Positions 11,443 to 33,544 of a DNA stretch of 64,000 nucleotides are shown piece after piece. The notes under the pieces were generated by a model. That model was not told where the DNA came from, made no database searches, and saw only the letters and a list, made by a program, of their open reading frames with translations. The position numbers and the translations under genes were made by a program. Position 1 is the stretch's first letter; the number at the start of each line of letters is the position of its first letter. The DNA is taken from contig NZ_AFXQ01000005.1 of assembly GCF_000224415.1 (NCBI RefSeq), positions 62,001 through 126,000 on the forward strand, given 5' to 3'. This stretch comes from Citricoccus sp. CH26A (GTDB lineage: Bacteria > Actinomycetota > Actinomycetes > Actinomycetales > Micrococcaceae).

Positions 11443-11445
11443 GGC

Positions 11446-11874: not shown

Positions 11875-11922
11875 GGTGCTCCTTCCGGGGCGGTCGTGGG
11901 CGGGGCGGGTTCACCCCCGACT

Positions 11923-12228: not shown

Positions 12229-12249
12229 GGGCGTTCCTTCCGGTGGGCA

Positions 12250-12271
12250 GCCCGGGCCGGCCGGCCCGGGC
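12250..12271. repeat. 22-bp perfect palindrome between fbaA and the small membrane protein gene
   Basis: A perfect, loop-free palindrome made of CCGG/GGCC steps, 11 bp after the fbaA stop. It may act as a cruciform or terminator element. Confidence 0.5.
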
Positions 12272-12282
12272 CCTCGGTGGGG

Positions 12283-18412: not shown

Positions 18413-18414
18413 CC

Positions 18415-18633
18415 ATGGCGGCGCAGGCACTGCACACGCTGGCCACCTCACTGGCCACGGCCTGGCGGAACACCGTGTGGTTCCTGCGCGGCGTGCTCGG
18501 GGCGGACGCCTACCAGCACTACCTGGCGCACCAGGCACGGGTGCACCCGGGCGCCGAGCCGATGTCAGAGCGGGCCTTCTGGAAGGACAGGATGGACTGG
18601 GAGGACCGGAACCCGCAGGGACGCTGCTGCTAG
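18415..18633 (+). CDS. YbdD/YjiX family protein, CstA partner
   Basis: 72 residues. WFLRGVLGADAYQHYLAH, the HPG motif (HPGAEPMSERAFWKDRMD) and the C-terminal cysteines (RCC) are the signature of the YbdD/YjiX family. It sits 2 nt after cstA and is needed for CstA function in other bacteria. Confidence 0.93.
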   Translation: MAAQALHTLATSLATAWRNTVWFLRGVLGADAYQHYLAHQARVHPGAEPMSERAFWKDRMDWEDRNPQGRCC

Positions 18634-18708
18634 CCCACTGACTGGGGCCCAGCACAGCACAGCTCGGAACGGACAGGTCCCGGGGCATCGGGTACGCCGA
18701 ACAGTCCC

Positions 18709-19323
18709 TCAGCGGTTCTCACCAGGAGCACCTGGCGGGTCGTCCGGGTCCTCCAGGCTGAGGACGATCTCGTTGCGTCGCAGGAACCAGGGCTTGTAGG
18801 GAGGATCGAAGCGGGCGAAGCGTGGTGGTCCGACCGGTGAAAGCCCTTCCGAGCGGAGAGCGGTTCGCAGCCTCTCCAGGTGCTTGCGGTAGTTCGCTGC
18901 GCTCCAGCGTCCGCGGAACCGGGTGGCCGCTGCCACCGCCGGGGGGACGAGGCGCAGCCTCACGCGGGAATCCGTGGGTCGAGGAGCGTTCTCGAGGGTG
19001 AATCCCTCCGGCAGCACGAAGGACACCCGGAAGCGCCCGCCGTCCGTGCAATCGGACCACGCGTCCGCGCATTCCTGCAGTACGGGAGCGGTCATCGCGA
19101 TGGACTCAGACGTGGAGTCCTGGAGGACCGGTGCCGTCATCGCGACCTTCTGGTCGGACTGGTTCTTGCCGTTGATATAGCCGAACAGGGTGCGGAAGGC
19201 GCGGTTGCCGGCATCTTCGAAGCTCGCCTCGACGGTGATCTCGGCCAGGACGTGCTCGGGGTACCGGCGCACTTCGAAGTCGTCATGGCTGCGCAGCGTC
19301 TCGTAGGGCTGGTGCGCCGTCAT
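18709..19323 (-). CDS. SOUL-family heme-binding protein
   Basis: 204 residues. YETLRSHDDFEVRRYPEHVLAE at the N-terminus, FGYINGKNQSDQKVAMTAPV, a repeated AMTAPVLQ, VSFVLPEGFTLENAP, and a C-terminal YKPWFLRRNEIVLSL are characteristic of SOUL/HEBP proteins. There is no signal peptide, so it is cytosolic. Leaderless start: TAGGTT (19335-19330, minus) lies 6 nt before the ATG. Its function in bacteria is poorly defined. Confidence 0.9.
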   Translation of the reverse strand: MTAHQPYETLRSHDDFEVRRYPEHVLAEITVEASFEDAGNRAFRTLFGYINGKNQSDQKVAMTAPVLQDSTSESIAMTAPVLQECADAWSDCTDGGRFRVSFVLPEGFTLENAPRPTDSRVRLRLVPPAVAAATRFRGRWSAANYRKHLERLRTALRSEGLSPVGPPRFARFDPPYKPWFLRRNEIVLSLEDPDDPPGAPGENR

Positions 19324-19329
19324 TCCAGT

Positions 19330-19335
19330 AACCTA
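19330..19335 (-). promoter_or_regulatory. -10 hexamer of the leaderless SOUL gene
   Basis: TAGGTT on the minus strand, 6 nt before the ATG. Confidence 0.5.
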
Positions 19336-19491
19336 CTCGGCCGCCGTCACCGGCGCCATGCCGACGACAGCCGTCACGTTGCCACCGGGCGGTCATCTGG
19401 TCCCACCCAGCGTGGAAGCGTGGAGAAGGACTGCGTCACCGGAACTCATCCTCGGTCGGGGACTGCAGGAAAACGTGCCCGGTACGGGACT

Positions 19492-19497
19492 TACCAT
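19492..19497 (+). promoter_or_regulatory. -10 hexamer of a leaderless gene
   Basis: TACCAT, then 6 nt, then the ATG at 19504. This decides the start of the membrane protein gene. Confidence 0.5.
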
Positions 19498-19503
19498 GTG
19501 GTC

Positions 19504-19992
19504 ATGGACGTGCTGGCGGGCTGGTCGGATTTCCACGTCGCCATGGTCGGGGCCACGGCTGCCCTGGCGGGTCTGGTGATCGTGGCCGCGAGCGTCAATA
19601 TCGACAAGGTCGTCACGGCCGGTTCTGTCACGGCTCGCCTGGCCGCCTCGATCGCCACGCTGGTGGTGGCCATCGTCGTCTCGGGCGTGGCGCTCGTGCC
19701 CGGCCTGCCGCTGCCGTGGTTCGGGGCATTGACCGTCGTCGCAGCGATCCCGGCCGCTGGGTTCCAGTTCCACGTGGCATCCACCCTTGCCCGCGACAGG
19801 CAAGGCCCGGCTCGGGGACGGTCACTGCGTTCGGCCATCGGGTTCGTGCCGATCCTGGCGTACCTCACGGCAGGGGTGCTGTGCCTGGCCGGACAGTCCT
19901 CAGGCGTGGGGGTGAGCGCGGCGGGCACGCTCACGACCATCATCGTCGCGCTCCTGATGTCATGGATCGCACTGGTCGAGGTGCTGCGCTGA
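19504..19992 (+). CDS. hypothetical polytopic membrane protein
   Basis: 162 residues with about five hydrophobic helices: AMVGATAALAGLVIVAASV (11-29), ARLAASIATLVVAIVVSGVA (41-60), WFGALTVVAAIPAAGF, IGFVPILAYLTAGVLCLA, LTTIIVALLMSWIALVEVL. The pattern, with NIDKVV after helix 1, resembles uncharacterised actinobacterial membrane proteins. No function assigned. The start rests on the leaderless promoter at 19492. Confidence 0.7.
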   Translation: MDVLAGWSDFHVAMVGATAALAGLVIVAASVNIDKVVTAGSVTARLAASIATLVVAIVVSGVALVPGLPLPWFGALTVVAAIPAAGFQFHVASTLARDRQGPARGRSLRSAIGFVPILAYLTAGVLCLAGQSSGVGVSAAGTLTTIIVALLMSWIALVEVLR

Positions 19993-20293
19993 CCCGGCGG
20001 TTGCGCGTATCCAGGCGTCATAAGAATGGGCGCCACGCCACGTGGTTCTCTGGCCGAGAACAATGAATCACGTCGAGTTGAAGACCATGTGCATTTCTCG
20101 TGCATGGCGGGAATCCGGATAACTCAATCGGCATTCTCTCGAGGGGCAGCTGTACCAGCACCTCGTTCTCGGCATGGCGTCGTAGGTGGCACTGAGGAGA
20201 CTCTGGGCCGACGCTGTCCCGATTGCCAACCAGGTACTGTCGGTCGACTGTGCGGCCGCCCGTCGGGTTGGCCGATAGTCATTGGTCGGCCGG
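19993..20293. other. intergenic region, left shoulder of the accessory island
   Basis: About 300 bases with lower G+C than the neighbours to the left. I see no convincing gene, RNA or terminator in it. The compositional change that marks the island appears to begin here. Confidence 0.4.
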
Positions 20294-20617
20294 CTACGGC
20301 TGCGGCTGCGGCGGTAGGGCAGCCACCAGCGGGTGGTCCTTGATCATGAGGCCCACCTGGGCGACTCCGCCCGGGAAGCCGAGGTCGTCGAAGAACGCTA
20401 CATCGGCCTTGTAGTAGTCGGCCCACTCTTCGGGAATGTCATCCTTGTCGTAGATCGCCTCGACCGGGCACACGGGCTCGCAGGCACCGCAGTCGACACA
20501 CTCGTCGGGGTGGATGTAGAGGGATCGTTCCCCCTCGTAATTGCGGTCGATGGGGCATTCCTCAATGCCGTCCTTGTCCTTGAGGTCCACACACGGCAAG
20601 GCAATGACACAGGTCAC
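20294..20617 (-). CDS. fdxA: 7Fe-type ferredoxin (FdxA family) lacking one [3Fe-4S] ligand
   Basis: 107 residues, clearly FdxA: YEGERSLYIHPDECVDCGACEPVCPVEA holds an intact C-x2-C-x2-C-x3-CP block, and the C-terminal DHPLVAALPPQ is typical. In the first motif Cys9 and Cys21 remain, but the usual central cysteine is Gly17 (DGIEECP) and the later free cysteine is Arg25 (DRNYEG). The first loss removes a ligand of the [3Fe-4S] cluster; the [4Fe-4S] set stays complete. GTG start. It lies at the island edge and could serve the radical-SAM aminomutase or the P450; this is speculative. Confidence 0.85.
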   Translation of the reverse strand: MTCVIALPCVDLKDKDGIEECPIDRNYEGERSLYIHPDECVDCGACEPVCPVEAIYDKDDIPEEWADYYKADVAFFDDLGFPGGVAQVGLMIKDHPLVAALPPQPQP

Positions 20618-21147
20618 GGGAGATCATCCACCTTCCAGCGGTTCGTTGGTTTGGGCCCTTGGGACTCCAGCACCTCGGACAGTCGGCTTGTACGGAAGCG
20701 TGCTCCCACGCCGCCCTGAGACTGGTACGGTGCGGCAGGCCATCGATCAAGCTGACACCGAGCTCATCAGCGAGGAGATGGGTAGGCAAGGGCGACAGAT
20801 AAGAAGTCTCTAGCGGTTCGGTGGTTGTTCACGACGACCAGTCGTCAAGGAGGTCTCCCACGTCAGCAGTTTCGTGGCCTCAGTGCACCGCGGTCCCACC
20901 GCCGCCAGGGGGCTTTGGGTTACGCCCTCGATCTCAAGGTGGCTTGGCTCCTTCGATGCCGAGATTTGTGCACCAAGGCCAGTTCTTTATGTGACGAAAG
21001 CCCTTAACAGTCTTGTCTGTTTCGTCGGAGGTGTTCCCCTCCTCTTAATCGAATCGGGCTTGCTCACTAGGGTGTGCGTGTAACGGCATTTACAGGGTCT
21101 GTTGGTGCAGCAGGGCCACCGACGGTATCCGGGGGGAGGACAACCCA
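20618..21147. other. long intergenic region between fdxA and the first SARP gene
   Basis: About 530 bases of relatively low G+C without a convincing gene. It holds the 5' regions of divergent fdxA and the SARP gene. GTAACGG at 21080-21086 is identical to a heptamer in the dapA/kamA operator, but only a poor match sits 11 bp further on. GGGGGGAGGA (21131-21140) is the SARP ribosome site. Confidence 0.4.
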
Positions 21148-21909
21148 TTGTTCGGAACATTCGCACCCGGTACTCGCAAGTTGCCGGGCTCCGAGACCTT
21201 GGCCTGTGATAGGGAATGGCGTTTACATCTTCTCGGGTCGTGGAAGCTGGTCCGAGGGGACGAGACGGTCATGGTGCACAGACGCCTGCAGCGGCTGATC
21301 GCGCTAGTGGCGTTGAGCGGCGCGATGTCGCGGATTAGGCTCGCGAAGACGCTTTGGCCCGGCAGCACGGAAGAGCGAGCTGCCAACAGCCTGCGCGTGG
21401 CTCTGTGGCAGCTCTCGCACTCGCTGCCGGAGTTGTTAGCCGATATTCGGGACCCCATCACCCTCCACCCTGACGTCGCGGTTGACGTCGATGAACTGAC
21501 GCTGGCCGTCGACCGGATCGAGGGCAGTCCGGTTCGGCTCCCCCACGTTGATCCCGTGCGCCTTCAAGCGGCGGAGCTACTGCCCGACTGGTATGACGAT
21601 TGGGTTTTTCCCGAACAGCAGCGATTTCGGGACCTGCGGATCCAGATCTTGGAACGTCTCTCCGAGGCATGCCTCGCGGACGGCGACCATTGCCGGGCAC
21701 TGGACTTTGTCCAGGCGGCCGCGGAGCTGGATCCGTTGAGGGAGACCACCCATCAGCTGCTCATGGAGTGCCACATATCGGCTGGTAATCACGTCATCGC
21801 ACATCGGGTGTTTGACAGCTTTCGAGACACGATGCGGCGTGAGCTGGATACGGAACCACCCGGTGAGATGCGCAGGCGTCTGGACTCATTACGCGTCATG
21901 GAGTCCTGA
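21148..21909 (+). CDS. SARP-type transcriptional activator 1 (winged helix plus BTAD)
   Basis: 253 residues from a TTG that follows GGGGGGAGGA by 7 nt. Residues about 22-100 form the OmpR-like DNA-binding domain (RLHLLGSWKLVRGDE, RRLQRLIALVALSG, LAKTLWPGSTEERAANSLRV, ALWQLSH). Residues about 110-250 form the bacterial transcriptional activation domain (LLPDWYDDWVFPEQQRFRDLR, ALDFVQAAAELDPLRETTHQLLM, HRVFDSFRDTMRRELDTEP). SARPs activate antibiotic clusters. Its gene ends inside the convergent GNAT gene (21-bp overlap). It is a paralogue of the regulator at 30859. Confidence 0.88.
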   Translation: MFGTFAPGTRKLPGSETLACDREWRLHLLGSWKLVRGDETVMVHRRLQRLIALVALSGAMSRIRLAKTLWPGSTEERAANSLRVALWQLSHSLPELLADIRDPITLHPDVAVDVDELTLAVDRIEGSPVRLPHVDPVRLQAAELLPDWYDDWVFPEQQRFRDLRIQILERLSEACLADGDHCRALDFVQAAAELDPLRETTHQLLMECHISAGNHVIAHRVFDSFRDTMRRELDTEPPGEMRRRLDSLRVMES

Positions 21910-22521
21910 ATGCCGCGCGCAAGGACCACCATCACGGCCCTCTGGGGTCTGATCGTTCTCAGGGCGGGAGTTCAGCCAGCGACCTCGCTTGAGCCGGAAG
22001 TAATGGTTCCTCCATCCCCAGGCCCTGCGCCAGCCATGACGCCGGAAGCCCAAGCGGCGTAGCGTCCGTTCTGAGTTCAGATTGTTCGGGTCGGTTACCG
22101 CAACGATCTTTGGCAGTCCCAGCCGGAAACCGTGCTCAATCACGGCCCGGGCCGCCTCCTGCGCCATGCCTCGTCCCCATTCGGCTCTGACCAACCGGAA
22201 ACCCAGTTCGATCTCCGGTCCCTTGCCACCGAGCGGGATGAGCAAGGCGAGGCCGATGAAGTGGTTATGATTTTGCCGCGAAACGATGGACCAGACGCCG
22301 AGTCCAGGCCCATACGGCGCGCAGATCCACTCTCGCTGTTCCTTGGAGTAGTCGAATCCGGGTGGTTCTCCCTCCAGGTATTCGTAGACGTCCGGGTGGG
22401 AATCCATGGCGGCCATCGCCGCCAGGTCGGTGCTCACCCAGGGTCGTAGCACCAGCCGTTCCGTCCTCAGCTCCGGGAGGGGGGTCGCGTCAGTCGGATG
22501 TCCGGACACCCATCTCACCAT
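21889..22521 (-). CDS. GNAT acetyltransferase (RimJ/RimL-like)
   Basis: 210 residues: LRTERLVLRPW at the N-terminus, GLALLIPL, ELGFRLVRAEWGRGMAQEAARAVI with the acetyl-CoA loop RxxxGxG-like segment, and NLNSERTLRRLGF. This is the RimJ/RimL branch that acetylates amino groups. It is last in the dapA-pls-DUF418-GNAT run, 24 bp after the DUF418 stop. In this setting it may N-acetylate the polymer or monomer as self-protection, or trim activity; that is inference. The basic C-terminus (about 175-210) is low complexity. Confidence 0.8.
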   Translation of the reverse strand: MVRWVSGHPTDATPLPELRTERLVLRPWVSTDLAAMAAMDSHPDVYEYLEGEPPGFDYSKEQREWICAPYGPGLGVWSIVSRQNHNHFIGLALLIPLGGKGPEIELGFRLVRAEWGRGMAQEAARAVIEHGFRLGLPKIVAVTDPNNLNSERTLRRLGFRRHGWRRAWGWRNHYFRLKRGRWLNSRPENDQTPEGRDGGPCARHSGLHDA

Positions 22522-22545
22522 GTCTGACCGTCTCCTCAGGCAGTC

Positions 22546-23745
22546 TCAGTCGCGCCCTGGGCGGGGCGGAGTGGTGACGCCCATCGACCTAGCCGCATTT
22601 CCCGCCCGATAGGCGAGCATTTCGAGTGGCCCTCGTTGCCGAGCGAGACGGAATGCGACACCGACAACGGCCGCTACCCCGGCTTGCCACCAGAAGAGGC
22701 CAACGATGTCGTAAGAGGGGTTCGTAGGCGTGATCAGGGCCATCACGGCAATGTGCGCTGAGTAAAGCGTCAGCGTCATCGCTCCGGCCCCTGCCAGGGG
22801 TAACAACACTCTGGGCCGCCCCCGCCCCACCAGCAGGCAGACTCCCAAGATGATCGCAGCTGTGCCCATGCTGTCGACCAGGGCAGGGGTGGTTCCCAAG
22901 TGCGGTTCATCTACGGCTAGCCACCACCAGGCGGCTCCGTCGAACCCGTCCAGGACCTCCGGGTAGTCGGGCGGATAGCTTCCGGCCGCGTCCCGAAGGG
23001 CCGCCCGGCCCCCAGCCGGGCCCAACAGGATCGAGCTGGCCAGACGGGAACCGAGAAACATCAGTGTTCCAACTCCTACCAGGAGCACCTCCACTCGCAG
23101 GGACCGCAGTCTCACGCGGCCCAACACCAATCCGAACAGGACGTAGCTGAACCATTGCAGCACCGGGTAGGCACCGGTGAGGAGCAGGTCAGAAAGTAGT
23201 GCCAATGGGGTCAACAGGCTGAGCCAGTTGGGTTCCGTAGTCAGGCCCATGCCACCACTCATGCTGACCAGCAGGGAATGGCACGACAACGCCATGACCG
23301 GCGCGAGGACCGTCCACGATGCGGCCCATGTGATCAGCCGGTTCAGTCTCATAGTGATGAACGGCAGCGCCAAGAGGAACATCACGGCGTACTGCACGAG
23401 GATGATCTCCAGCTCGGAACCGGTCATTCCCAGGGACAAACCCACGGCTCCAATGACACCAGCCCTGGCGGTGATGCCACGGCGGTGGGCTGCGACGTGT
23501 GCATGGGCGGCCGGCTGATCACCTCCGGTCAGCAGTGACAGGCCCACCCCGGCCAGCACGGCGAACATGGCAGCCGATCGGCCCAGGACGAGCTGGGACA
23601 TCCAATCGGGAGCCGTCGAATCCGGGTAGGCCACCCTGAACACGTGGACAGTCATCATGCCGAGCAGAGCCACCCCTCGGGCTGCGTCGACCCCGACCAG
23701 ACGTAGCCCCTTTTCGGCGTGCTGAGCGTCATCGTCTGGCGCCAT
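22546..23745 (-). CDS. DUF418-family polytopic membrane protein
   Basis: 399 residues and about ten membrane helices. RLVGVDAARGVALLGMMTVHVF at the N-terminus and a C-terminal MTLTLYSAHIAVMAL with FWWQAGVAAVVGVAFRLARQRGPLEML match the DUF1624/DUF418 architecture, related to membrane acyltransferases. The ATG at 23745, 29 nt after the pls stop, is preferred over 23805, which lies in the pls gene. Membrane location and operon position next to the synthetase suggest a part in export, acylation or immunity; not established. Confidence 0.78.
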   Translation of the reverse strand: MAPDDDAQHAEKGLRLVGVDAARGVALLGMMTVHVFRVAYPDSTAPDWMSQLVLGRSAAMFAVLAGVGLSLLTGGDQPAAHAHVAAHRRGITARAGVIGAVGLSLGMTGSELEIILVQYAVMFLLALPFITMRLNRLITWAASWTVLAPVMALSCHSLLVSMSGGMGLTTEPNWLSLLTPLALLSDLLLTGAYPVLQWFSYVLFGLVLGRVRLRSLRVEVLLVGVGTLMFLGSRLASSILLGPAGGRAALRDAAGSYPPDYPEVLDGFDGAAWWWLAVDEPHLGTTPALVDSMGTAAIILGVCLLVGRGRPRVLLPLAGAGAMTLTLYSAHIAVMALITPTNPSYDIVGLFWWQAGVAAVVGVAFRLARQRGPLEMLAYRAGNAARSMGVTTPPRPGRD

Positions 23746-23774
23746 GGACACCTGAGGATCTCCTCGGGGCTCCG

Positions 23775-26700
23775 TCAGCCCTGGACGGTGGGGATGCCGT
23801 GCCAACGGTTTCCTGCGGGCATGGTCTCGCCCTTCATCAGCAGCGATAGCGGCCCCACGACGGCGTCCTCCTCCATCACGGTGTCATAGAGCACCACCGC
23901 CATGTTGCCCACGGAGCATCCTTCCCCGATCACCAGGTGGGATGACTTCATGATCCGGTCCTCGAAGAGGTGGTTCTGGATGATCGAACCGGCATTGAGG
24001 GCAGCGAAGTCCCCGATCTGGATCAAGTCGAACTCCGAGAAGAGACTACTGCCGATATAGCAGTTCTTTCCGATCCGACAACCGAGCAACCTCAGCACCG
24101 GAGCAGCGAACGGCGTGCCGAAGAGCTGAGCGACGATCGGTGACATGAGCGACTCGTAGGCTCCGTTGAGCATCTCGTTGAACCATACATAAGGAGACCA
24201 CAGGGGCACGACGACGGGGTGGAAGCGCCCCATGACGGTCCACTTCAGAACGACGACGACGGCGATGGCGATGATGGCCAATGTCAGTGCCAGCCCAGGC
24301 AGGATCAAGAGCATGATCCACACCCCATAGGTTTGGTAGGTCAAGATGACCGCCACAAGACCAGTGAGACCGAGGACGGTCTGCGTGTAGGCGGGAATCA
24401 AGATACGCAAAGCATCGACCACGCCGCGGCGTACGTACATCTTGCGGCTCGGGAGATAGGTCGTGCCGTCGTCAAAACCGGCAACCTTCTGCCGGTTAGG
24501 AAGGTTGAAGGCCGGGGATCCGAGCCAGTCCGTGCCGTCAGGTGTGGGCTCTGTTCGTGACGGAGGGACGGACAGGACACCCAGCAGGCTGTTGTCGCCC
24601 AGACTCGACGCGACCGGCAGCATCGCGCTGTTCCCAACAAAACTGCGCCTTCCAACAGTGTTGGGGTGGAGTTCAAAATGACCGCCGAATGTCCTGCGCC
24701 CTCCCAGGATTGCACCGTCGGCGAAGAAACTGCCCTCACCGACGGTCAACAATTCTGGGATGAAGCTCCACACGGTGGACATCTCCGAGTGGCGGCCGAC
24801 CTTGGCACCGAGCAGGCGCATCCACGGGGGGAGGTAGATGGTCGTGAAGACGGGTAAGAACATTGTTCGACTGGAGCGCATGAGGCTGTAGGCCATCCAG
24901 TGGCGCAGATAGTAGAAAGTGTAAAGCTCGTATACCCCGGTCCGAGCACGACGGAGTAACACGGCCTTGAACAGCGCCACCCAGAAGCAAGAGAACACGA
25001 CCATGAGCGGCACGGCGAGCAATGAGAGGCCTGCCGCCGGAAGGAACCACCCCTGCTGGGCAGCGACCAACCAGAACAGTGCCATGGCCAAGGCCGGGAG
25101 GCCGAACAATAGTCCTGACAACATCCCGAGCACGAACACTCCGACGCAGAAGAGTACGAGGCGCGTCAGACTGTAGCGCCGAATATCCTCAACGGGAACA
25201 TGGACCTCGGTCGGCTCAGCCGGAGAGCCACGTCGTTGCTCGTCCGCTCCCAGGATGGTGCCGTCAGGCAGCAGGGACTGATCGTCTAGGCGGGAACCGT
25301 CGCCCATCTGCACATCGAGGCCGAGGGCGGAGTGCGCACCCACGAAGCACCGGTCACCGATCTCGAGGGTACCGATGAGCAAGTAACCGTTCTCGATCCG
25401 ATACCCGAGTAGTTGGGTGTCGGCACCGATCGTGGAGTCGTCGCCGATCCGCACCGTGTCCCAGATTGAACACAGTCCCGTCTCAAGGGCACAGTTGCGG
25501 CCGACTTTCGCACCCATCAACCGGTAATAGACGGTCATCAGCGGCGTACCCGCGAGCATGCCCAGGCCGCTCAAGCCCTGGAGTCTCTGGACGATCCACC
25601 AACGGATGTAGTAACTCCCCCACAATGGATACGCCCCGGGCTTGTACCGTCCGATGACTACCCACTTCGACCCCACCCCCACGAGAAGTAACACCGGCCA
25701 GAGGATCAGCCCGAACACCAGGAGGAAGATTACTCCCTCCAGCACGGGTGTCCGCCCTTGGAGCATGCCGTCGATGACGGGCACGATAACGACCGCCGGG
25801 AGAGAGAAGACCAAGAGCAAGCCGAGGATGACCCCGGCCTGCAAGGCCGCCACCCGCTTGCGAACGCTTCGACGAGTCGGCGGGGGCGTAGCGTAGGCCC
25901 CTGCGAGGGCCACATCGGTCGTTTCGTGTGCGCGGGCGGAGTGTTGACTGAGTTGGCGCACCGTCGGGTAGGCATAGAGATCGCGGACAGCCACGCGGCA
26001 GTCCGCTTTCTCCCGCAGTGCGGCGACCGTCCGGGCCGCAAGCAGGGAGTGCCCGCCAAGATCGAGGAAGAAGTCCTGGTCTACCCCTACCTCCGGTATC
26101 CCGAACACGGCGGCCCATGCGTCAGCGATCTTCTGCTCCCGTTCGGTCACGGGCCGCTCACCGATGGACGAGCCGTCGACCAGCGGAGTCCTCGCGTCGG
26201 GGAGCTTACCCCGATCGATCTTGCCACTGGTCAACCGGGGCAGCTCCTCTAGAACGTCCAGTGAGGTGGGCACCATGTAGGAAGGAAGCCGGGAGCGTAA
26301 TGTCGCCAGCAACCCGGAACGGTCGAGCTCAGCCGACGGCTCGAGGACGACGTAGGCTGCAAGGTGGTCGACGCCGTCGAGTCTGCGTACTTTCACGGCT
26401 GCCGATCTGATGGCGTTGTCCTCGCGGAGCACCGCCTCGATCTCTGCGAGTTCCACTCGATACCCGCGGATCTTGACCTGGCCGTCGATGCGTCCAAAGA
26501 ACTCGATTTCCCCATCTTCATTGGCCCGGACGAGGTCTCCGGTCCGGTAGAGCCGACCGCCACGGTCTGGATGCGCCAAGAACTGCTTCGATGTCAGTTC
26601 GGGCTGATTGAGATATCCGCGGGAGATGCCTGCTCCGCCGATGTACAGTTCTCCCATTTCCCCGGGTGCTACCGGGTGCATGGTGGAATCGAGAATGTAC

Positions 26701-27710
26701 GGCACATAGCCAGGCAGCGGCTTTCCGATCGTGACGGACCGGCCGGGTTCGCACACGAAAGCCGTGGTATTGACCGTGGCCTCGGTCGGACCGTAGACGT
26801 TGAGCATCAGCCGCCCTGGCCGGGCCCAATCGGCAACCAGTTGGGGAGGACAGGCCTCCCCGCTTACTACGACCTGGCGTAGGGAGGGAATATCCGCCGT
26901 CATGGTGGCGAGCATGGTAGGCACCGTGGAGAAGTAGGTCACGCGCAGGGCGGTCAAGTGTTGGGCCAGGTCATTGCCGAAGCGCGGGGCGGACCGCGTC
27001 CCGACGACCAGTGAGGCCCCATTGGAGAAGGCCATCCAGATTTCCTCGACGGATCCATCGAACCCGAGCGAGAACCCCTGATAGATCCGGTCCTCGCGGG
27101 TGGTGGAACAAACCCGGTTGAACGCCGGTATGAAGTGGGTGGCATTGCGATGCTCCGTCATGACACCCTTCGGGCGCCCCGTGGTGCCCGAAGTGAAAAT
27201 CACGTAGCAGAGGTCTTCCGGCGTCAGTCCCGTCTCGGTGCGGGTTAGACGCCGGTCCGCGCAGGCAGCGATGTCGGCCGCCTCCACGTCCGTGGCGACA
27301 ACCTCGGCCGTAGCCAATGCCATGCACCGCTCGGCGAGGACTCGCTCCGTGAGGACGGTTTCGATGGACGCTTCGGAGACGATGTACTGGATTCGGTCGT
27401 CCGGGTGGCCCGGATCAAGGGGCACGTATGCGGCTCCGGCCTTGAGGCAACCTAGGATCGCGACGATCGGCATCTCGGAGCGCTCGTAGAAGAGCCCGAC
27501 CAGTGACCCCGGGCCCACCTGACGAGCGCGCAGATAGTGCGCCAGACGGTTGGCTTGGGCGTCCAGTTCCCCATAGGTCAGCGATACCTCTCCGCAGATC
27601 AACGCCGTCGATTCGGGGTGGGCATCTGATTGCTGCTCGAAGAGTTCGTGCAGGCAGGCCTGGTCGGTCGAAGTGAGTGCGGAGCGGCTCTGCAGGTCGA
27701 TGTTCGTCAT
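23775..27710 (-). CDS. epsilon-polylysine-synthetase-like membrane NRPS (A-T-TM/C-like domains)
   Basis: 1311 residues, close to the roughly 1319 of streptomycete Pls. Order: adenylation domain (20-510; SGTTGRPKG at 174-182, GEL and YRTGD cores, A10 Lys497), thiolation domain (LGGHSLL, Ser555), then three repeats of paired membrane helices (about 625-680, 850-920, 1105-1158), each followed by a C-like soluble domain resembling left-handed-helix acyltransferases (GAKVGRNCALETGL, GAKVGRHSEMSTVW, GCRIGKNCYIGSSL). There is no thioesterase, as in Pls enzymes that polymerise and release iteratively. My hand-aligned pocket code is D-G-E-S-V-S-V-V-N-K; the acidic residue suits a cationic amino acid. 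Shine-Dalgarno GGAGG 5 nt before the ATG. dapA lies 46 bp upstream. The substrate is inferred as beta-lysine or lysine. Confidence 0.9.
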   Translation of the reverse strand: MTNIDLQSRSALTSTDQACLHELFEQQSDAHPESTALICGEVSLTYGELDAQANRLAHYLRARQVGPGSLVGLFYERSEMPIVAILGCLKAGAAYVPLDPGHPDDRIQYIVSEASIETVLTERVLAERCMALATAEVVATDVEAADIAACADRRLTRTETGLTPEDLCYVIFTSGTTGRPKGVMTEHRNATHFIPAFNRVCSTTREDRIYQGFSLGFDGSVEEIWMAFSNGASLVVGTRSAPRFGNDLAQHLTALRVTYFSTVPTMLATMTADIPSLRQVVVSGEACPPQLVADWARPGRLMLNVYGPTEATVNTTAFVCEPGRSVTIGKPLPGYVPYILDSTMHPVAPGEMGELYIGGAGISRGYLNQPELTSKQFLAHPDRGGRLYRTGDLVRANEDGEIEFFGRIDGQVKIRGYRVELAEIEAVLREDNAIRSAAVKVRRLDGVDHLAAYVVLEPSAELDRSGLLATLRSRLPSYMVPTSLDVLEELPRLTSGKIDRGKLPDARTPLVDGSSIGERPVTEREQKIADAWAAVFGIPEVGVDQDFFLDLGGHSLLAARTVAALREKADCRVAVRDLYAYPTVRQLSQHSARAHETTDVALAGAYATPPPTRRSVRKRVAALQAGVILGLLLVFSLPAVVIVPVIDGMLQGRTPVLEGVIFLLVFGLILWPVLLLVGVGSKWVVIGRYKPGAYPLWGSYYIRWWIVQRLQGLSGLGMLAGTPLMTVYYRLMGAKVGRNCALETGLCSIWDTVRIGDDSTIGADTQLLGYRIENGYLLIGTLEIGDRCFVGAHSALGLDVQMGDGSRLDDQSLLPDGTILGADEQRRGSPAEPTEVHVPVEDIRRYSLTRLVLFCVGVFVLGMLSGLLFGLPALAMALFWLVAAQQGWFLPAAGLSLLAVPLMVVFSCFWVALFKAVLLRRARTGVYELYTFYYLRHWMAYSLMRSSRTMFLPVFTTIYLPPWMRLLGAKVGRHSEMSTVWSFIPELLTVGEGSFFADGAILGGRRTFGGHFELHPNTVGRRSFVGNSAMLPVASSLGDNSLLGVLSVPPSRTEPTPDGTDWLGSPAFNLPNRQKVAGFDDGTTYLPSRKMYVRRGVVDALRILIPAYTQTVLGLTGLVAVILTYQTYGVWIMLLILPGLALTLAIIAIAVVVVLKWTVMGRFHPVVVPLWSPYVWFNEMLNGAYESLMSPIVAQLFGTPFAAPVLRLLGCRIGKNCYIGSSLFSEFDLIQIGDFAALNAGSIIQNHLFEDRIMKSSHLVIGEGCSVGNMAVVLYDTVMEEDAVVGPLSLLMKGETMPAGNRWHGIPTVQG

Positions 27711-27756
27711 GATTCCTCCGGGTGCAGGCGGTGAGTGCGGGCGATCGGGCGCTTGA

Positions 27757-28683
27757 TCAGGAGACCGGCCGTAGGAGGGACGCGACAGCGGTGGTGCAAG
27801 CCGTCGAGGCCTCAAAGTCCTTCATGAGTACCTGGACTTCCTGCGGTGACAACGGCACCAGGGGTGAACGGACCGGTCCTGCCGGCAAGTGAAGGAATGA
27901 CAACAACTCCTTGACGGACGCTGAGGCCGGGCAGCGGAATAGACCGGTGAAGATGGGCAACAGTTCTCGATGGATTCCCAGGGCGTCCTCCATGGAGCCC
28001 GAGTGAAAACACGCCAGCATGCTCCGCAGCGCAGGGGCAGCGAGATGCCCTGCGACGGAGATGAATCCGCTTGCCCCAACGGACAACAGGGGAAGGTTCA
28101 GAGCGTCATCGCCGGAGTAGTAGACGAGCCCGGTGTGCTTGAGCACCCAGGACGTCGATTGCAGGTCCCCCTTGGCATCCTTGACCGCGACGATGCGAAC
28201 ATGTTCTGCCAGTGCCCGCAAGGTCTCCGGCTCCACTGCCACACCGGTCCGTTTGGGAATGTCGTAGACGATGACGGGCAGTGACGTGCTGTCGGCGATC
28301 GCGGTGAAATAGTCGATCAGGCCGCTCTGGGACGGACGGCAATAATACGGAGCCACCACGAGCAATCCGTCCGCCCCTGCATCCTCGGCATCCTGCGCGA
28401 GGGCCACACTGTGTCGGGTGTCGGATGAACCCACTCCGGCGATGACGCTCCGGCCCGCTGGGGCCAGGACCTCGCGCACGGTTTCTATCACACGTCGCTT
28501 CTCCGCCGCGGACGTGCTGAAAGCCTCACCGGTGGTGCCATTCAGCACCAGCCCATCATTCCATCCTGGCCGGGTCAACCACTGTGCCAACCGGCGGCAA
28601 CCCTCGATGTCGACGTCCCCCTGTGGGTCGAAGGGCGTCACCATGGCAGTCAGGACGTTTCCGAATCGGCTGTTCTCACTCAT
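27757..28683 (-). CDS. dapA: 4-hydroxy-tetrahydrodipicolinate synthase (cluster-associated paralogue)
   Basis: 308 residues. The DHDPS/NAL family barrel shows GTTGE, the catalytic Tyr region APYYCRPSQSG, IPKRTG and the Schiff-base lysine in VAVKDAKGD. It commits aspartate semialdehyde to lysine. The ATG at 28683 follows GAGGAG by 7 nt and is preferred over 28698. It is first in the run dapA-pls-DUF418-GNAT, behind the SARP-like repeats at 28755-28772. A second, pathway-dedicated copy would raise lysine for polymer synthesis. N-acetylneuraminate lyase-like specificity is less likely given the context. Confidence 0.87.
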   Translation of the reverse strand: MSENSRFGNVLTAMVTPFDPQGDVDIEGCRRLAQWLTRPGWNDGLVLNGTTGEAFSTSAAEKRRVIETVREVLAPAGRSVIAGVGSSDTRHSVALAQDAEDAGADGLLVVAPYYCRPSQSGLIDYFTAIADSTSLPVIVYDIPKRTGVAVEPETLRALAEHVRIVAVKDAKGDLQSTSWVLKHTGLVYYSGDDALNLPLLSVGASGFISVAGHLAAPALRSMLACFHSGSMEDALGIHRELLPIFTGLFRCPASASVKELLSFLHLPAGPVRSPLVPLSPQEVQVLMKDFEASTACTTAVASLLRPVS

Positions 28684-28754
28684 TCGTGTGCTCCTCACGC
28701 GAAATCGTGCCGGCCATCCCCTGGGTCGGCGCTCCTCGCAGTGAACGGCTCCGT

Positions 28755-28772
28755 GCGTTAATCGCCCGTTAT
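28755..28772 (-). promoter_or_regulatory. SARP-type direct repeat for the dapA-pls operon
   Basis: On the minus strand ATAACGG (28772-28766) and TTAACGC (28761-28755) are spaced exactly 11 bp, one helical turn. This is the heptamer layout recognised by SARP activators at -35 regions. A mirror pair on the plus strand lies at 28806. Confidence 0.65.
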
Positions 28773-28805
28773 CGAGACAACCGATGGGACCTCACGGTCA
28801 AAGCG

Positions 28806-28823
28806 GTAACGGAGCTTTAACGG
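28806..28823 (+). promoter_or_regulatory. SARP-type direct repeat for kamA
   Basis: GTAACGG (28806-28812) and TTAACGG (28817-28823), spaced 11 bp, read toward kamA. They share their sequence with the pair facing dapA, so both divergent units probably answer to the same activator. Confidence 0.65.
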
Positions 28824-28916
28824 CGTGACGTCAACGCTGGCGCTCGGATGGCAATCATCCGGTGGTATCCGGCTCGGGCCCAGGCCTGTTCCGGTGTCGA
28901 CATAAGGAGTGCACCA

Positions 28917-30197
28917 ATGTACCCAGACTGGACGCGATTCTCGGTGTGGAAAGACGTATCCGAGGAGGAGTTCGGCCATCACAGCTGGCAGGACCGCAAC
29001 TCGATCACGCGCATCAAGCAACTAAGGGCAGCGCTGGATGTGGTGGCCGCACCGGAGGTGATCCAAGACATCGAGGACGGCCTGACGCACGTGGGCATGT
29101 CGATTCGGTTGACCCCGTACGTGATGAACCTGATCGACTGGTCCAATGCCATCTCGGACCCGATCCGCAGCCAGTTCCTTCCGATGCGCTCGGAGCAGGA
29201 AGAGGATCATCCTTGCCTGCGGGTCGACTCTCTCGAAGAACAGGATAGATCCCCGGTACCCAGCCTCGTACACCGGTACCCGGACAAGGTGCTGTTCCTC
29301 GTCACAGCAGTGTGTCCCGTGTACTGCCAGTTCTGCACTCGCAGTTACGCCGTGGGCCAGAGCACCGATCTGGTTCAGAAGGAGCAAGTGACCAGTACTA
29401 GGAACTGGCCGGCGGCACTGGACTACATTCGCAGGACGCCAGAGGTTGAGGACGTGGTCATCTCCGGCGGTGACCTCGCCCGGTTGAAACCCGCCAACGT
29501 GTTCGAGTTGGGCAACGCGTTGCTGGACATTGAACACGTGCGCCGTTTCCGATTTGCGACGAAGGCACTGGCTGTCGAACCGATGAAGTTCCTCACGGAC
29601 CAGGAGTGGGTCGACGCGCTCACCGCGGTCGTCGACCGCGGCCGGACGATGTTCAAGGATGTCGTCCTCCACACCCACTTCAACCATCCCGACGAGGTCA
29701 CACCCGTCGTCGAGCAGGCGATGCGGCTGCTTCATTCACGGGGGGTTTTCGTCCGCAACCAGACCGTGTTGCTCCGGGGGGTGAACAATGATGCCCTGAC
29801 GCTGAAGACCTTGATCAAACGGCTCAGCCGGGTGAACATCCATCCGTATTACGTCTATGTATGCGACATGGTCAAGGGCACCGAGCACTTCAGGTTGCCG
29901 ATCGCCGAGGCCCAGTCCTTAGAGAAGGAAGTCCGGGGGGTAACGGCCGGGTTCAATACTCCGCTATTCATCGTTGACACTCCGACCGGCAAGAGGGACG
30001 TGCATTCCGCGGAATTCCACAACGATGAGTTCGGGGTTTCGGCGTTCCGATCTCCAAACGTCGACGCCAGCCGCCTGTGCTATTACTTCGATCCGGTGCG
30101 TTCCCTCAGCTCCGAGGCGCGACTGGCCTGGGGCTCCGAACATGCCCGCGAGCGCATTCTCGACGAAAGGATCGAACCTGATCTCGCCCGAGCCTGA
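28917..30197 (+). CDS. kamA: lysine 2,3-aminomutase
   Basis: 426 residues, radical-SAM and PLP enzyme making L-beta-lysine. Cluster motif C133-x3-C137-x2-C140 (CPVYCQFC). The two aspartates that bind the lysine side-chain amine in Clostridium LAM (Asp293, Asp330) are matched by Asp317 (YVCD) and Asp354 (FIVD) with identical 37-residue spacing. The PLP lysine is Lys359 in a shortened loop (TPTGK). Glutamate aminomutases lack these aspartates, so lysine is the likely substrate. AAGGAGT lies 7 nt before the ATG. It is divergent from dapA-pls and reads from its own SARP-like repeat. Confidence 0.9.
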   Translation: MYPDWTRFSVWKDVSEEEFGHHSWQDRNSITRIKQLRAALDVVAAPEVIQDIEDGLTHVGMSIRLTPYVMNLIDWSNAISDPIRSQFLPMRSEQEEDHPCLRVDSLEEQDRSPVPSLVHRYPDKVLFLVTAVCPVYCQFCTRSYAVGQSTDLVQKEQVTSTRNWPAALDYIRRTPEVEDVVISGGDLARLKPANVFELGNALLDIEHVRRFRFATKALAVEPMKFLTDQEWVDALTAVVDRGRTMFKDVVLHTHFNHPDEVTPVVEQAMRLLHSRGVFVRNQTVLLRGVNNDALTLKTLIKRLSRVNIHPYYVYVCDMVKGTEHFRLPIAEAQSLEKEVRGVTAGFNTPLFIVDTPTGKRDVHSAEFHNDEFGVSAFRSPNVDASRLCYYFDPVRSLSSEARLAWGSEHARERILDERIEPDLARA

Positions 30198-30212
30198 GAG
30201 CACCGAAGAGCA

Positions 30213-30254
30213 CCGGGCTCCTGGGCCGCATCCACATCGGCAACAGGAGCCCGG
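30213..30254 (+). terminator. inverted repeat after kamA
   Basis: An 11-bp stem (CCGGGCTCCTG, 30213-30223; CAGGAGCCCGG, 30244-30254) with a 20-nt loop, 16 nt after the kamA stop. There is no T-tract, so terminator function is likely but unproven. Confidence 0.55.
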
Positions 30255-30591
30255 GGCCTTAGGGCCGGTAGCAGGCCGGCCATCAGGTCCCAGGGCGGGA
30301 TGAGCCCGCAGTCATACACCGGTTCTTCCTGTCTTCTCAGTGGGCCCACCTCACCGGAATCCTGCTCCCGCTGAGAGGCAGCTGGATCGGAACCGGAAGC
30401 ACCGCCATGGGCGCCGTCCACTGGTCGGCGTCGACCATCGAGTCCCTGCCCGATTTTCTCATGGAGGCATGCAGGGCTATATTGGATGTGACATGGACGT
30501 TCAGCGGTTGTTCCTGTCTTTCTGGTTGTATCCTGCCGCTCAACCTCAGGGATGAGCCGCCAACTCCGGGAATCTCACAGGAAGGACACCG
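30255..30591. other. intergenic region upstream of the small orphan gene
   Basis: About 340 bases. A -10-like TATATT lies at 30478-30483, and AGGAAGGA at 30579-30586 is the ribosome site of the next gene. No convincing gene or RNA is seen otherwise. Confidence 0.35.
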
Positions 30592-30813
30592 GTGGATAGC
30601 GACACTGTCGACGGCAATGAGGAGACCGCCGGGGTGGGGAGCTCCATCGTGATCAGGATGTGGCGGGAGCCGGAGCACGACAGACAATTCCGTGCACGGC
30701 TCATCCGCACCGGTTGGCGGGAGGATGTCGACGTGGCGCTGGTAGCCGACCCGGATGCGGTCCTGAAACAGGTGGAGAAATGGCTGGCAGAGTTCACTGC
30801 GTCAGGGACTTGA
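30592..30813 (+). CDS. small hypothetical protein of the polymer cluster
   Basis: 73 residues from a GTG preceded by AGGAAGGA. A short acidic N-terminus leads to SSIVIRMWREPEHDRQFRARLIRTG and a C-terminal helix LKQVEKWLAEF. No membrane segment or cysteine. I do not recognise the family. It lies between kamA and the second SARP gene, on the kamA strand. Confidence 0.5.
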   Translation: MDSDTVDGNEETAGVGSSIVIRMWREPEHDRQFRARLIRTGWREDVDVALVADPDAVLKQVEKWLAEFTASGT

Positions 30814-30858
30814 TCTGATCTTCGGCACGCGGGCGTGCGTTGCACGAAACCCCACCGA

Positions 30859-31599
30859 TCATCGCTGTTTTCGGTCGAGGACGTCAGGACGCATTCCGGC
30901 GTCCTCGATGAGCAGGGCAAAGCGCTCCGATGGCTCTAATCCAAACTGCCGCAGGGAAAAAGAGCGGAAACGCTGATAGGTCTGAGCTGCTGACTCCAGA
31001 TTCCCGTCAGCGATGTGCCCCTCGGCCAGCAGCCGATGCGCTGTCTCGCGCAGGGGGTCAGCGTCTACTGCGGTTTGCGCGGCGACGAGGGCCGCCCGTA
31101 GCGCATTCCGGGTGATGAACTGCCGTGCTAATGATTCCAGCGTGCTGACGCGCATCTGATGCAGCCTCTCCCGCTGAGCTACAACCCAGTCATCCTGCCA
31201 ACTCGGCAACAGATTCGGATGCACGAGAGAATCGAGAAGCGCCCGCAGTTCTCGCTCGTCTGTTTGTTCGGAAAGGCGACCCGCCCTCCGGTACAGTTCC
31301 GTGACGTCCACATGTACGTTCTCGGTTAGTCCCAGCCGAGTACCGTCATCTTGCAGCACCCCGGGAAGTCGCTGACGAATCTGCCAGACACTCGCCCGGA
31401 GACTCCCCAGCGCCTGCGACTCACTGCTGTTGCCCCACAGGAGGTCAGACAGAAACATCCGCGAACGGTCCCCGTACATGGCCAGGGCGGCAATGAGGCG
31501 CTGCTGACGGGGCGCCACCTTGACCGCTTGTCCTCCTCGGTGCACATGCCACTCCCCGAGCAGGGCCAATTTCCACAGTGGAGCAGGCGCCGCAGGCAT
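30859..31599 (-). CDS. SARP-type transcriptional activator 2 (winged helix plus BTAD)
   Basis: 246 residues from the ATG at 31599, preceded by GGGGGAGGA; a TTG at 31623 is the alternative. It has the same two-domain layout as the regulator at 21148: KLALLGEWHVHRGGQ, RQQRLIAALAMYG, FLSDLLWG then SLRASVWQIRQRLPG in the DNA-binding domain, and LLPSWQDDWVVAQRERLHQMR, ALVAAQTAVDADPLRETAHRLLAEGH, TYQRFRSFSLRQFGLEPS in the activation domain. The two regulators bracket the cluster and may bind the 11-bp-spaced heptamers at 28755 and 28806. Confidence 0.88.
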   Translation of the reverse strand: MPAAPAPLWKLALLGEWHVHRGGQAVKVAPRQQRLIAALAMYGDRSRMFLSDLLWGNSSESQALGSLRASVWQIRQRLPGVLQDDGTRLGLTENVHVDVTELYRRAGRLSEQTDERELRALLDSLVHPNLLPSWQDDWVVAQRERLHQMRVSTLESLARQFITRNALRAALVAAQTAVDADPLRETAHRLLAEGHIADGNLESAAQTYQRFRSFSLRQFGLEPSERFALLIEDAGMRPDVLDRKQR

Positions 31600-31642
31600 G
31601 CGTCCTCCCCCGTTGACGTCCAAACTGGCCTAATGGAGAGAA

Positions 31643-31665
31643 CAATAACCGGCCTGACGTTATTG
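31643..31665. promoter_or_regulatory. dyad symmetry upstream of SARP 2
   Basis: CAATAAC (31643-31649), 9-nt spacer, GTTATTG (31659-31665), about 44 bp before the SARP 2 ATG. On the minus strand it includes ATAACGT, near the heptamer of the dapA/kamA repeats. It may be an operator. Confidence 0.45.
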
Positions 31666-31859
31666 ACGTAGACGTGTTCATCGTGCGACGCCGGGAAGAA
31701 TCCGTCACGACCCATCTGCCATCTCAGTTCCCTGGCTTGCTGAATCCCTGCCCATTCCTCCCCGGACGTGGCAGGCGCGAGCCCATCGCAACTTCGCGAT
31801 AGACAGTGTTCGGATTCAGCCTGATCCGCGGGGATCCAGCTGAAGCCAGGTGGATGTCC

Positions 31860-32290
31860 CTATGGATGTAAAGCCGCCTTGCGAGGTATCTCCTTGGCGG
31901 GTTCGCCAGTTGGTGTTCGGATGAACTCGTAGATCTCGCGGGTCACGTATCTGTGGAGGTCACGGATGGCTTCGCGTCGAGTACCGCCCTCGGCGGGTCG
32001 CTTGCGGAGGTGCTCCTGTGTGCGGCTTCGTCAACGGCCGCAGCGATGCGATGATACAGCTCCTCGACTTCCGCGCTGAGGTGCGGGATGCGTCGGCCAG
32101 GATCCGCAGCGTGATGCGGATGGCTCCGGCCGGTCCTGTGTGCCTCGCGCTACTCAACCGGGTGCACCGTTTAGCCAGATGTTGGTCGCTCAGCCCGGCA
32201 AGGAACTGTCGAAGGGCACCGTCGCTGGTGACGATGACGGCCTTTACGGTCGATGTGACACGAGCCGAGAGCGCGGGCGTGCGGCGGATT
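31860..32290 (-). mobile_element. decayed IS110-family transposase remnant
   Basis: Three frames on the minus strand give colinear IS110 transposase fragments. STVKAVIVTSDGALRQFLAGLS and GAIRITLRILA come first. After a one-base loss near GGCCGACGC, RRIPHLSAEVEELYHRIAAAVDEAA follows. After a large internal deletion of the catalytic core, the C-terminal EHLRKRPAEGGTRREAIRDL with HRYVTREIYEFI ends at a TAG (31862-31860). It is not functional. It marks the right edge of the island. Confidence 0.65.
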
Positions 32291-32533
32291 CAGCGTTGAT
32301 CATGTCGCTCTTCCCGCACGCCGTTCGTATGAGGAGCTGGTGGCGCGGAAACCGCGCGAATCGAACAGGCCACCGATCATCGGTACGACGGGTACGACGT
32401 GGACGAGCTTGTGCTTGTCGACACCCCACAGGACGTCCTCGCCCGTGGATGCAGCGACCGCGGCCTCTGGGCGCACCAGTCTGCCCCGCCAGCGGTCAGA
32501 CTTTCCGACCCTGCCGGCCCGGGCCGCAGGGCG

Positions 32534-32539
32534 CACAAT
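32534..32539 (+). promoter_or_regulatory. -10 hexamer of leaderless corA
   Basis: CACAAT, 6 nt, then the GTG at 32546. Confidence 0.45.
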
Positions 32540-32545
32540 GGTGCC

Positions 32546-33544
32546 GTGACGATCGTCGACAACGCCATCTACAAGGACGGCAAGCGCATCCTGGCCCCCA
32601 CCAGCCTCCAGGAGACCTTCGAGGAGTGCGAACGACTGGGCGGCATGGCCTGGGTCGGGTTGTACAGACCGGACGAGGCGGAGCTGCAGGAGGTCGCCGA
32701 GGAGCTGAACCTCCACGAACTCGCGGTCGAGGACGCGCTGGCCGGTGGGCAGCGGGCCAAGCTCGAGCACTACGACGACGACCGGTTCTTCGTGTTGATC
32801 CCGGCCCGCTACATCGACGAGACCGAGACGGTCGAGTTCGGCGAGCTCAACGTGTTCGTCGGGGCGAACTTCGTGGTCACGGTGCGCCACTCCGAGGTGC
32901 CCGACCTCTCCCGGGTGCGGTTGCACCTGGAGCGGGACCGGCCCGAACGGCTGGCGGCGGGGACCCCCGCCGTGGTGCACGGGATCCTGGACTCGGTGGT
33001 GGACGACTACTTCCCGGTCGCCGACGGCCTGGACAACGACATCGCGGAGATCGAGGACCAGATCTTTGCCGGGGACGGCAACGTCTCCCGGCGCATCTAC
33101 CAGCTCTCCCGGGAGGTGGTGAACTTCCAGCGGGCGATCCGGTCCCTGCCGTACATGCTCGACAACATGATCGAGAACCTGGAGACGGACCCGTCCAAGG
33201 TCGAGGTGGTCCGCAAGCTGCGGGACGTCCAGGACCACACCGAGCAGCTCAACGACCGCGTCATGGCCATGCGGACCATGCTCGAGCACGCCCTGGAGCT
33301 GGACTCGACCCTGACCTCCAAGAAGCTCGCCGAGGAGTCCGTGCGGCAGAACGACCAGGTGAAGAAGATCTCGTCCTGGGCGGCCATCATCTTCGCCCCG
33401 CAGTTGATCGGGTCCATCTACGGCATGAACTTCGACCGCATGCCGGAACTCCATTGGGCCTGGGGCTACCCCTTCGCCCTCGGGCTCATGCTGGCGATCG
33501 CCGTGGTGCTCTACGTCCTGTTCAGGCGCAACGACTGGCTCTAA
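32546..33544 (+). CDS. corA: CorA-family magnesium/cobalt channel
   Basis: 332 residues. An acidic cytoplasmic N-domain (LQETFEECERLGGMAWVGLYRPDE, FFVLIPARYIDE) and a long helix are followed by two C-terminal membrane helices. The selectivity motif YGMNFDRMPELHW lies between the helices and FRRNDWL is at the end. This is a 2-TM-GxN channel. The GTG at 32546 is set by the homology start (VTIVDNAIYKDGKR) and the leaderless -10 at 32534; upstream codons are unrelated. Confidence 0.94.
   Translation: MTIVDNAIYKDGKRILAPTSLQETFEECERLGGMAWVGLYRPDEAELQEVAEELNLHELAVEDALAGGQRAKLEHYDDDRFFVLIPARYIDETETVEFGELNVFVGANFVVTVRHSEVPDLSRVRLHLERDRPERLAAGTPAVVHGILDSVVDDYFPVADGLDNDIAEIEDQIFAGDGNVSRRIYQLSREVVNFQRAIRSLPYMLDNMIENLETDPSKVEVVRKLRDVQDHTEQLNDRVMAMRTMLEHALELDSTLTSKKLAEESVRQNDQVKKISSWAAIIFAPQLIGSIYGMNFDRMPELHWAWGYPFALGLMLAIAVVLYVLFRRNDWL

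Follow-up and report, generated by a model that had tools for sequence, protein, structure and literature searches.

The window analysed here, 64,000 nucleotides of contig NZ_AFXQ01000005.1 from Citricoccus sp. CH26A (positions 62,001 to 126,000), carries an insertion of 13.9 kb between cstA and corA (18635..32525, unstranded) in which a Pls/PosA-family synthetase, an additional gene for lysine supply and a KamA-family radical S-adenosylmethionine (SAM) aminomutase stand side by side. We consider it likely that this acquired island makes epsilon-linked poly- (or oligo-) L-beta-lysine, a reading of substrate and polymer that rests on sequence. An initial annotation had proposed such a product for 20294-31599. 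Its location was right, and the genes that it named are present there as intact open reading frames (ORFs) by comparison with Pfam and NCBIfam models, but the unit proved to be larger, at about 18635-32525, and includes a SOUL protein.

The synthetase is encoded on the minus strand at 23775..27710 (likely ATG at 27710; longest ORF to 27815) and consists of an adenylation (A) domain, a thiolation (T) domain and a terminal domain. It scored 569.7 bits against TIGR02353 (cut-off 423.1), in keeping with the Pls-like enzyme first described, and both K532 of the A domain and S590 of the T domain are intact. Hydrophobic stretches lie in the terminal domain at residues 653-722, 881-955 and 1138-1199, and a further, marginal stretch spans residues 115-133 of the A domain; three pairs of helices are described for Pls in an excerpt of PMC10522769 (all papers cited by accession are represented by excerpts). 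The island's own dapA, for 4-hydroxy-tetrahydrodipicolinate synthase, occupies 27757..28683 on the same strand (likely ATG at 28683; longest ORF to 28698) and passes the equivalog model TIGR00674 (254.6 bits, cut-off 206.15); two further homologues in the same genome show 54% and 44% identity to it. The aminomutase reads in the opposite direction at 28917..30197 on the plus strand (likely ATG at 28917, preceded by AAGGAG; longest ORF from 28848), passes the KamA subfamily model TIGR00238 (246.4 bits, cut-off 199.2) and has 2a5h as its best solved relative. It lies one gene from the synthetase, in divergent orientation, with dapA between the two.

Adenylation code and aminomutase linkage

Our search of the literature found one characterised epsilon-poly-beta-lysine system, that of Streptoalloteichus hindustanus NBRC 15115 (PMC10522769, PMC9606270). 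The initial annotation had named a precedent in Streptomyces, which is not the genus of the producer reported in the excerpt of PMC10522769, and the code given there for the S. hindustanus synthetase is DGESISVVNK. The specificity positions of the island synthetase read DGESVSVVNK, which matches the reported code at 9 of 10 positions, with a conservative Val for Ile at position 5, and has Gly at position 2 where Ala would be expected for Pls (DAESIGTVVK). Scanning the named genomes with the aminomutase returned three relatives, all in metagenome-assembled genomes (MAGs), from Hyphomicrobiales (57% identity; L042, the L numbers being our handles for loci), Deltaproteobacteria (48%; L043) and Pirellulales (47%; L044). 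In L042 and L044 the aminomutase adjoins a Pls-family synthetase that is 48% identical to the window's, and L042 has the same divergent layout of the two genes. The L042 synthetase carries the same code as the window, while that of L044 is DGESISVVNK, exactly the one reported for S. hindustanus. The pattern DGES[VI]SVVNK was thus read in three of the three Pls-family synthetases that adjoin this aminomutase subfamily and in none of 19 other Pls-family A domains (17 full and 2 partial, with the split L114 uncounted). A synthetase tree of 18 rows places the window, L042 and L044 on one branch (approximate likelihood ratio support, SH-aLRT, of 100), within which the window and L042 group at 98. 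A search of L042 and L044 at E <= 1e-6 found no counterpart of dapA or of the genes for the GNAT, the two SARP-type regulators (Streptomyces antibiotic regulatory proteins), FdxA or the acyltransferase, so the shared core is the aminomutase and the synthetase. At the same threshold the 17 Pls-type stretches L092-L098 and L105-L114 contain no aminomutase match; L078, L115 and L116 were taken with about 1.5 kb of flank only.

No further DGES-code synthetase and no S. hindustanus locus turned up in the contig scan of the named genomes, the class and family samples or the plasmids, a result that does not imply absence. The class and family samples were drawn from larger groups, some of them scored on the best two or three candidates per genome and on very strong matches only, and 7 of the 15 plasmid matches listed (703 records) were read, with codes of the DFEC, DFEY, DMEH or DLED type. 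The proposed poly-beta-lysine product gains support from the A-domain code, from the linkage of aminomutase and synthetase in two other phyla and from the aligned aspartates kept in the aminomutase.

Membership in the Pls family and the extra dapA would also suit a synthetase that makes epsilon-poly-alpha-lysine, with the aminomutase as a bystander or as a supplier of beta-lysine for use elsewhere (as an osmolyte, or for elongation factor P). Pls homologues are reported from several related actinobacterial genera in the excerpt of PMC8117764, and L043, whose aminomutase is a close relative, lacks a Pls-type partner. Set against this alternative are Gly rather than Ala at code position 2, the recurrence of the aminomutase-synthetase linkage in two other phyla and the presence of a separate synthetase of the Streptomyces albulus type in the same genome. 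This enzyme (L113; C55 of the genome, 8576-12832, minus strand), whose gene is adjoined by one for an M1 peptidase, scored 647.8 bits against 7wew, the crystallised A domain of S. albulus Pls, with an identical code as read from the alignment (DAESIGTVVK), and it is probably orthologous to the epsilon-poly-alpha-lysine synthetase of S. albulus. Since L113 matches 7wew with the same code, the genome appears to hold both alpha-lysine and beta-lysine type synthetases. A pure Pls (alpha-lysine) reading of the island is disfavoured by the DGES code and by L113, and we regard it as quite unlikely.

Other Pls-family codes in the genome are DFECLSVVTK (L111 and L112) and DFECLSAVT (L110, a partial gene); L114 is split and differs from these. 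In L112 (C53 of the genome, 7980-15862, plus strand) two M28 peptidases and then an HGSNAT-type acyltransferase come after the synthetase, an arrangement that looks like a further cationic polymer operon. A related code, DFECLSAVTK, occurs in the Pls-family synthetase of L096 (Streptomyces sp. NBC_01527 plasmid, 5926-12645), which is followed by an annotated diaminobutyrate transaminase and an aspartate kinase; these neighbours offer a natural calibration of DFECLSAVTK as a diaminobutyrate code.

The aminomutase and the choice of monomer

The aminomutase had been introduced as a lysine 2,3-aminomutase (LAM), an assignment that holds at the level of the KamA subfamily model and falls short at that of the LAM equivalog, TIGR03820, where 249.5 bits were obtained against a cut-off of 525.4. 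Because that cut-off was missed, we file the enzyme as a member of the KamA family that probably works like LAM. Models for arginine and glutamate aminomutases scored below the lysine model, at 207.0 and 214.0 bits, respectively. The radical SAM motif CxxxCxxC is kept (C156, C160 and C163), and R165, D340 and D377 align with 2a5h, the two aspartates falling opposite a pair in 2a5h that we take to bind the epsilon-amine of lysine. The lysine of LAM that holds pyridoxal 5'-phosphate (PLP) presumably sits in the PGGGGK loop, and K382 is the only lysine at that place in the island enzyme, in the loop D377-TPTG-K382. An AlphaFold model of the protein was uninformative here, with a mean predicted local distance difference test (pLDDT) score of 67.8 and values below 50 for residues 378-382.

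Several observations weigh against a beta-lysine polymer, the missed LAM cut-off being one of them. Compared with L042-L044, the D377-K382 loop lacks two residues, and its lysine stands at D+5, versus D+6 in 59 and D+7 in 9 (the nearest relatives among these) of the 68 relatives, out of 69, in which it could be read; the one left unread for the loop is L029, and the search pattern could not have shown D+5. In the viomycin-type locus L090 (vioC and vioD annotated) the lysine is at D+6, and therefore a loop shorter than PGGGGK is tolerated, although the window's is the shortest read. An aminomutase tree of 26 rows joins the window to L042 (100/99) and the Pirellulales L044 to L043 (96/99), and the three Pls-linked aminomutases form one clade in 0% of 200 bootstrap trees. 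Because the DGES synthetases make up one branch while the aminomutases split, the association between code and linkage counts as one synthetase clade and not as three independent observations. The 5-kb contig of L043 holds no synthetase, and its genome (G896) gave only A-domain-type matches, the best at 95.5 bits. Rhizobial and Klebsiella plasmids also carry relatives of the aminomutase, with 43-49% identity, whose neighbours are other biosynthetic genes or genes without annotation, and the stretches read around them contain no Pls-type match (the L086 record is unannotated). L043 and these plasmid relatives stand without a Pls partner, and therefore the KamA subfamily alone does not prove a homopolymer and was rejected as sole proof of one. 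Lastly, neither an aspartokinase nor a peptidase domain was found among the scanned island ORFs.

On the Klebsiella plasmids L087 and L088 (10500-15876) the KamA-family gene and its neighbours are common to both, with a nonribosomal peptide/polyketide synthase (NRPS/PKS) further off, which looks like a beta-amino-acid pathway; in L088 the neighbours are annotated as a class I tRNA-ligase-family protein and a transporter of the major facilitator superfamily.

The score below the LAM equivalog cut-off, the unusual PLP-lysine loop and the single departure from the reference code could also indicate another cationic amino acid as monomer, or another beta-amino acid derived, for example, from ornithine or arginine. 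We judge this very unlikely. Both aspartates aligned with the presumed lysine-binding pair are kept, the arginine and glutamate models score below the lysine model, dapA feeds lysine, and the V/I exchange at position 5 is conservative, with V found in L042 as well. The shortened loop might instead mark an island that is silent or decayed and makes no product, as might its foreign base composition and its absence from six informative genus mates. Intact ORFs, the kept synthetase motifs and CxxxCxxC, and two exact promoter repeats argue otherwise, as does a loop in L090 that is just one residue longer than the window's, and there appears to be little chance of such silence or decay.

If the island makes poly-beta-lysine, the extra DapA would raise the supply of lysine, and the KamA-family enzyme would shift its 2-amino group to C3 with the use of SAM, PLP and a ferredoxin-type reductant. 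The A domain of the synthetase would then adenylate beta-lysine and load it onto the T domain; the units would be joined through the epsilon-amine, and the chain released, by the terminal domain in the membrane. Capping or protection of the product would probably fall to the membrane acyltransferase and the GNAT. The divergent promoters, with their opposed 11-bp repeats, may be switched by the SARPs of the island and/or a PhoP-type regulator.

Accessory genes, spacer repeats and island boundaries

The membrane protein encoded at 22546..23805 on the minus strand had been labelled DUF418, and this label was rejected; no DUF418 match was obtained up to E = 1, and HGSNAT_cat (PF07786) matches instead with 34.5 bits (cut-off 22). 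Of the 17 other Pls-type stretches searched, three have homologues of this HGSNAT-type acyltransferase: L112, after the two M28 peptidases, L114, at 3 kb from the split synthetase, and L094, on a Rhodococcus plasmid. Because HGSNAT-type genes accompany these three stretches, we propose that the enzyme acylates the polymer across the membrane. A bolder version strikes us as rather improbable: the product of the island would be a poly-beta-lysine tailored by acylation at the membrane, its production controlled by phosphate and SARPs, and the HGSNAT-type enzyme would pass acyl groups onto the amines of the emerging polymer and so replace the usual degrading peptidase as self-protection. If this were true, the membrane-acylated polymer would open a new class of modified cationic isopeptides, and the HGSNAT-type enzyme would be a recurrent partner of Pls.

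Four other island genes complete the accessory set. On the minus strand are those for the GNAT acetyltransferase (21889..22521; PF13302, E 7.8e-27), the ferredoxin FdxA (20294..20617; NF045480, 152 bits, cut-off 125), which may donate electrons to the radical SAM enzyme, and the protein with a SOUL haem-binding domain (18709..19323; PF04832, E 7.5e-46). The pair of SARP regulators announced for the locus was borne out by a BTAD domain (PF03704) in both proteins, encoded at 21148..21909 on the plus strand (E 2e-15) and 30859..31623 on the minus strand (E 6e-12). These activators have the size of small SARPs (253 and 254 aa) and are paralogous, with 38% identity over 221 positions.

The spacer between the dapA (28683) and aminomutase (28917) starts contains two 11-bp direct repeats. 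The first, CGTTAATCGCC CGTTATCGAGA (28756..28777, plus strand), reads towards the aminomutase and ends 140 bp before its ATG, and the second, CCGTTAAAGCT CCGTTACCGCT (28802..28823, minus strand), reads towards dapA and ends 119 bp before its ATG. Each contains an exact TAACG-N6-TAACG element (28756-28771 and 28807-28822); the two are oppositely oriented, and each reads CGTTA-N6-CGTTA in the direction of one of these genes. Shuffling the window 100 times produced none. The exact pattern occurs three times in the whole genome, where 1.2 copies are expected from base composition and a reversed control pattern is absent, and a second copy would fall within 150 bp of a given one with a probability of about 1e-4. 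When two mismatches are permitted, the window holds 9 instances of the repeat for 9.2 expected by chance, and for this reason we claim no weaker sites before the SARP genes.

The repeats suggest SARP and/or phosphate control of the divergent promoters. SARPs are reported to bind direct repeats spaced by 11 bp, with the 3' repeat 8 bp from the -10 element (PMC10936776); by eye, the spacer repeats have no clear -10 hexamer at this SARP-typical distance, and predictions of sigma-70 promoters and terminators were at chance level. Against the full AfsR-type consensus of 22 bp the spacer site has 4 mismatches, a fit at least equalled at two further positions in the window, and the consensus was not used as evidence. 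Alternatively, the opposed repeats could be PHO boxes of the PhoP/RegX3 type and not SARP boxes, which would make the pathway phosphate-controlled. The third exact copy in the genome (L134, 1495-1516; C63:130189) stands about 145 bp upstream of pstS, called by a narrow score (TIGR00975, 205.2 bits, cut-off 205), with CGTTA reading towards that gene, and AfsR and PhoP are reported to share one site at afsS, of the form CGTT(T/C)ATCGNN, and to have sites that overlap at pstS (PMC10936776, PMC10972967). On the other side, two SARP genes lie within the island itself, the third copy also precedes a divergent ORF of unknown family, and the pstS copy alone could be due to chance because 1.2 copies are expected genome-wide. 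We see PHO boxes as a serious contender at somewhat under even chances, and they would be compatible with a beta-lysine product.

Lower G+C, already remarked on in the initial annotation, sets the island apart at 0.630, versus 0.723 and 0.715 in the flanks, in a genome of about 3.5 Mb whose chromosome has about 72% G+C. At third codon positions the G+C content (GC3) is 0.67-0.83 in ten island genes and 0.91-0.97 in cstA, corA, pyrE and nadE. The boundaries come from pyrE, which is present in all eight genomes of the genus that were compared and whose neighbourhoods in the seven others were aligned with the window by blastn. In one of them (L126, genome G119) window bases 18634 and 32526 are directly adjacent, at 6122/6123 of that locus. 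L127 has a spacer of about 500 bp at the site, L128, L129, L130 and L131 lack the island and the window's cstA stretch too, and L125 is uninformative, as its contig ends at window position 33330. The island is therefore missing in all six of the informative relatives (six of the seven). The aminomutase is also sparsely matched in wider sets: 1 of 149 family genomes has a match at E <= 1e-20, the window's own; 59 of 396 sampled phylum genomes have one at E <= 1e-40, none above about 41% identity besides the own copy; the best score among 394 sampled class genomes after the 815 bits of the own copy is 335.8; and of 398 genomes sampled from the phylum to which the Hyphomicrobiales MAG belongs, that MAG alone passes E <= 1e-110. 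With the genome sets being samples, this distribution fits recent horizontal acquisition. Degenerate pieces at 31860-32460 on the minus strand, at the right end of the island, resemble by eye a remnant of an IS110-type transposase; the pieces sent to Pfam and the plasmid comparison gave no match, and this identity is not claimed. Rfam returned no match in 18400-32700 at the gathering threshold and PADLOC none in the five proteins examined, and 19 phage records had weak aminomutase matches, none covering 80%.

Relation to known systems

Reports of polylysine-type clusters as such exist for Micrococcaceae and their relatives (PMC11078813, PMC8117764, PMC12149201). The present island is compact and has its own lysine-supply gene and switch, and the relatives of its core in the Hyphomicrobiales and Pirellulales MAGs would show the pair of aminomutase and synthetase across phyla. 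Such a system could serve for studies of chain-length control by the membrane domain, of self-protection in the producer and of a possible release of the polycation on phosphate starvation.

Among characterised enzymes, 2a5h, a clostridial LAM, resembles the island aminomutase in CxxxCxxC, R165, D340 and D377 by alignment, with K382 taken as the PLP lysine; the island enzyme differs by the two residues missing from the PGGGGK loop and by its place below the LAM equivalog cut-off. The Pls of S. albulus (7wew), which as a whole we take to be an A-T-membrane synthetase of TIGR02353, shares that family with the island synthetase but is unlike it in its code, DAESIGTVVK, and L113 is a member of that kind. 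Pls is also reported in an operon with a peptidase gene (PMC8117764), whereas the scanned island ORFs have no peptidase domain. PosA, the delta-poly-L-ornithine synthetase, is likewise described as a member of the A-T-membrane family and differs from the island enzyme in its code, DMEHNGTVSK, and its single-gene operon (PMC10522769). If both L113 and the island synthetase work, one strain would make alpha- and beta-lysine polymers, a direct natural comparison of the two. The primary study of the epsilon-poly-L-beta-lysine synthetase locus of S. hindustanus NBRC 15115 is reportedly that of Yamanaka (2022). The excerpts of PMC10522769 and PMC9606270 describe this locus as a Pls-type synthetase adjoining a lysine 2,3-aminomutase, an arrangement to which the island, with its KamA-family gene one gene away beyond dapA, comes close.

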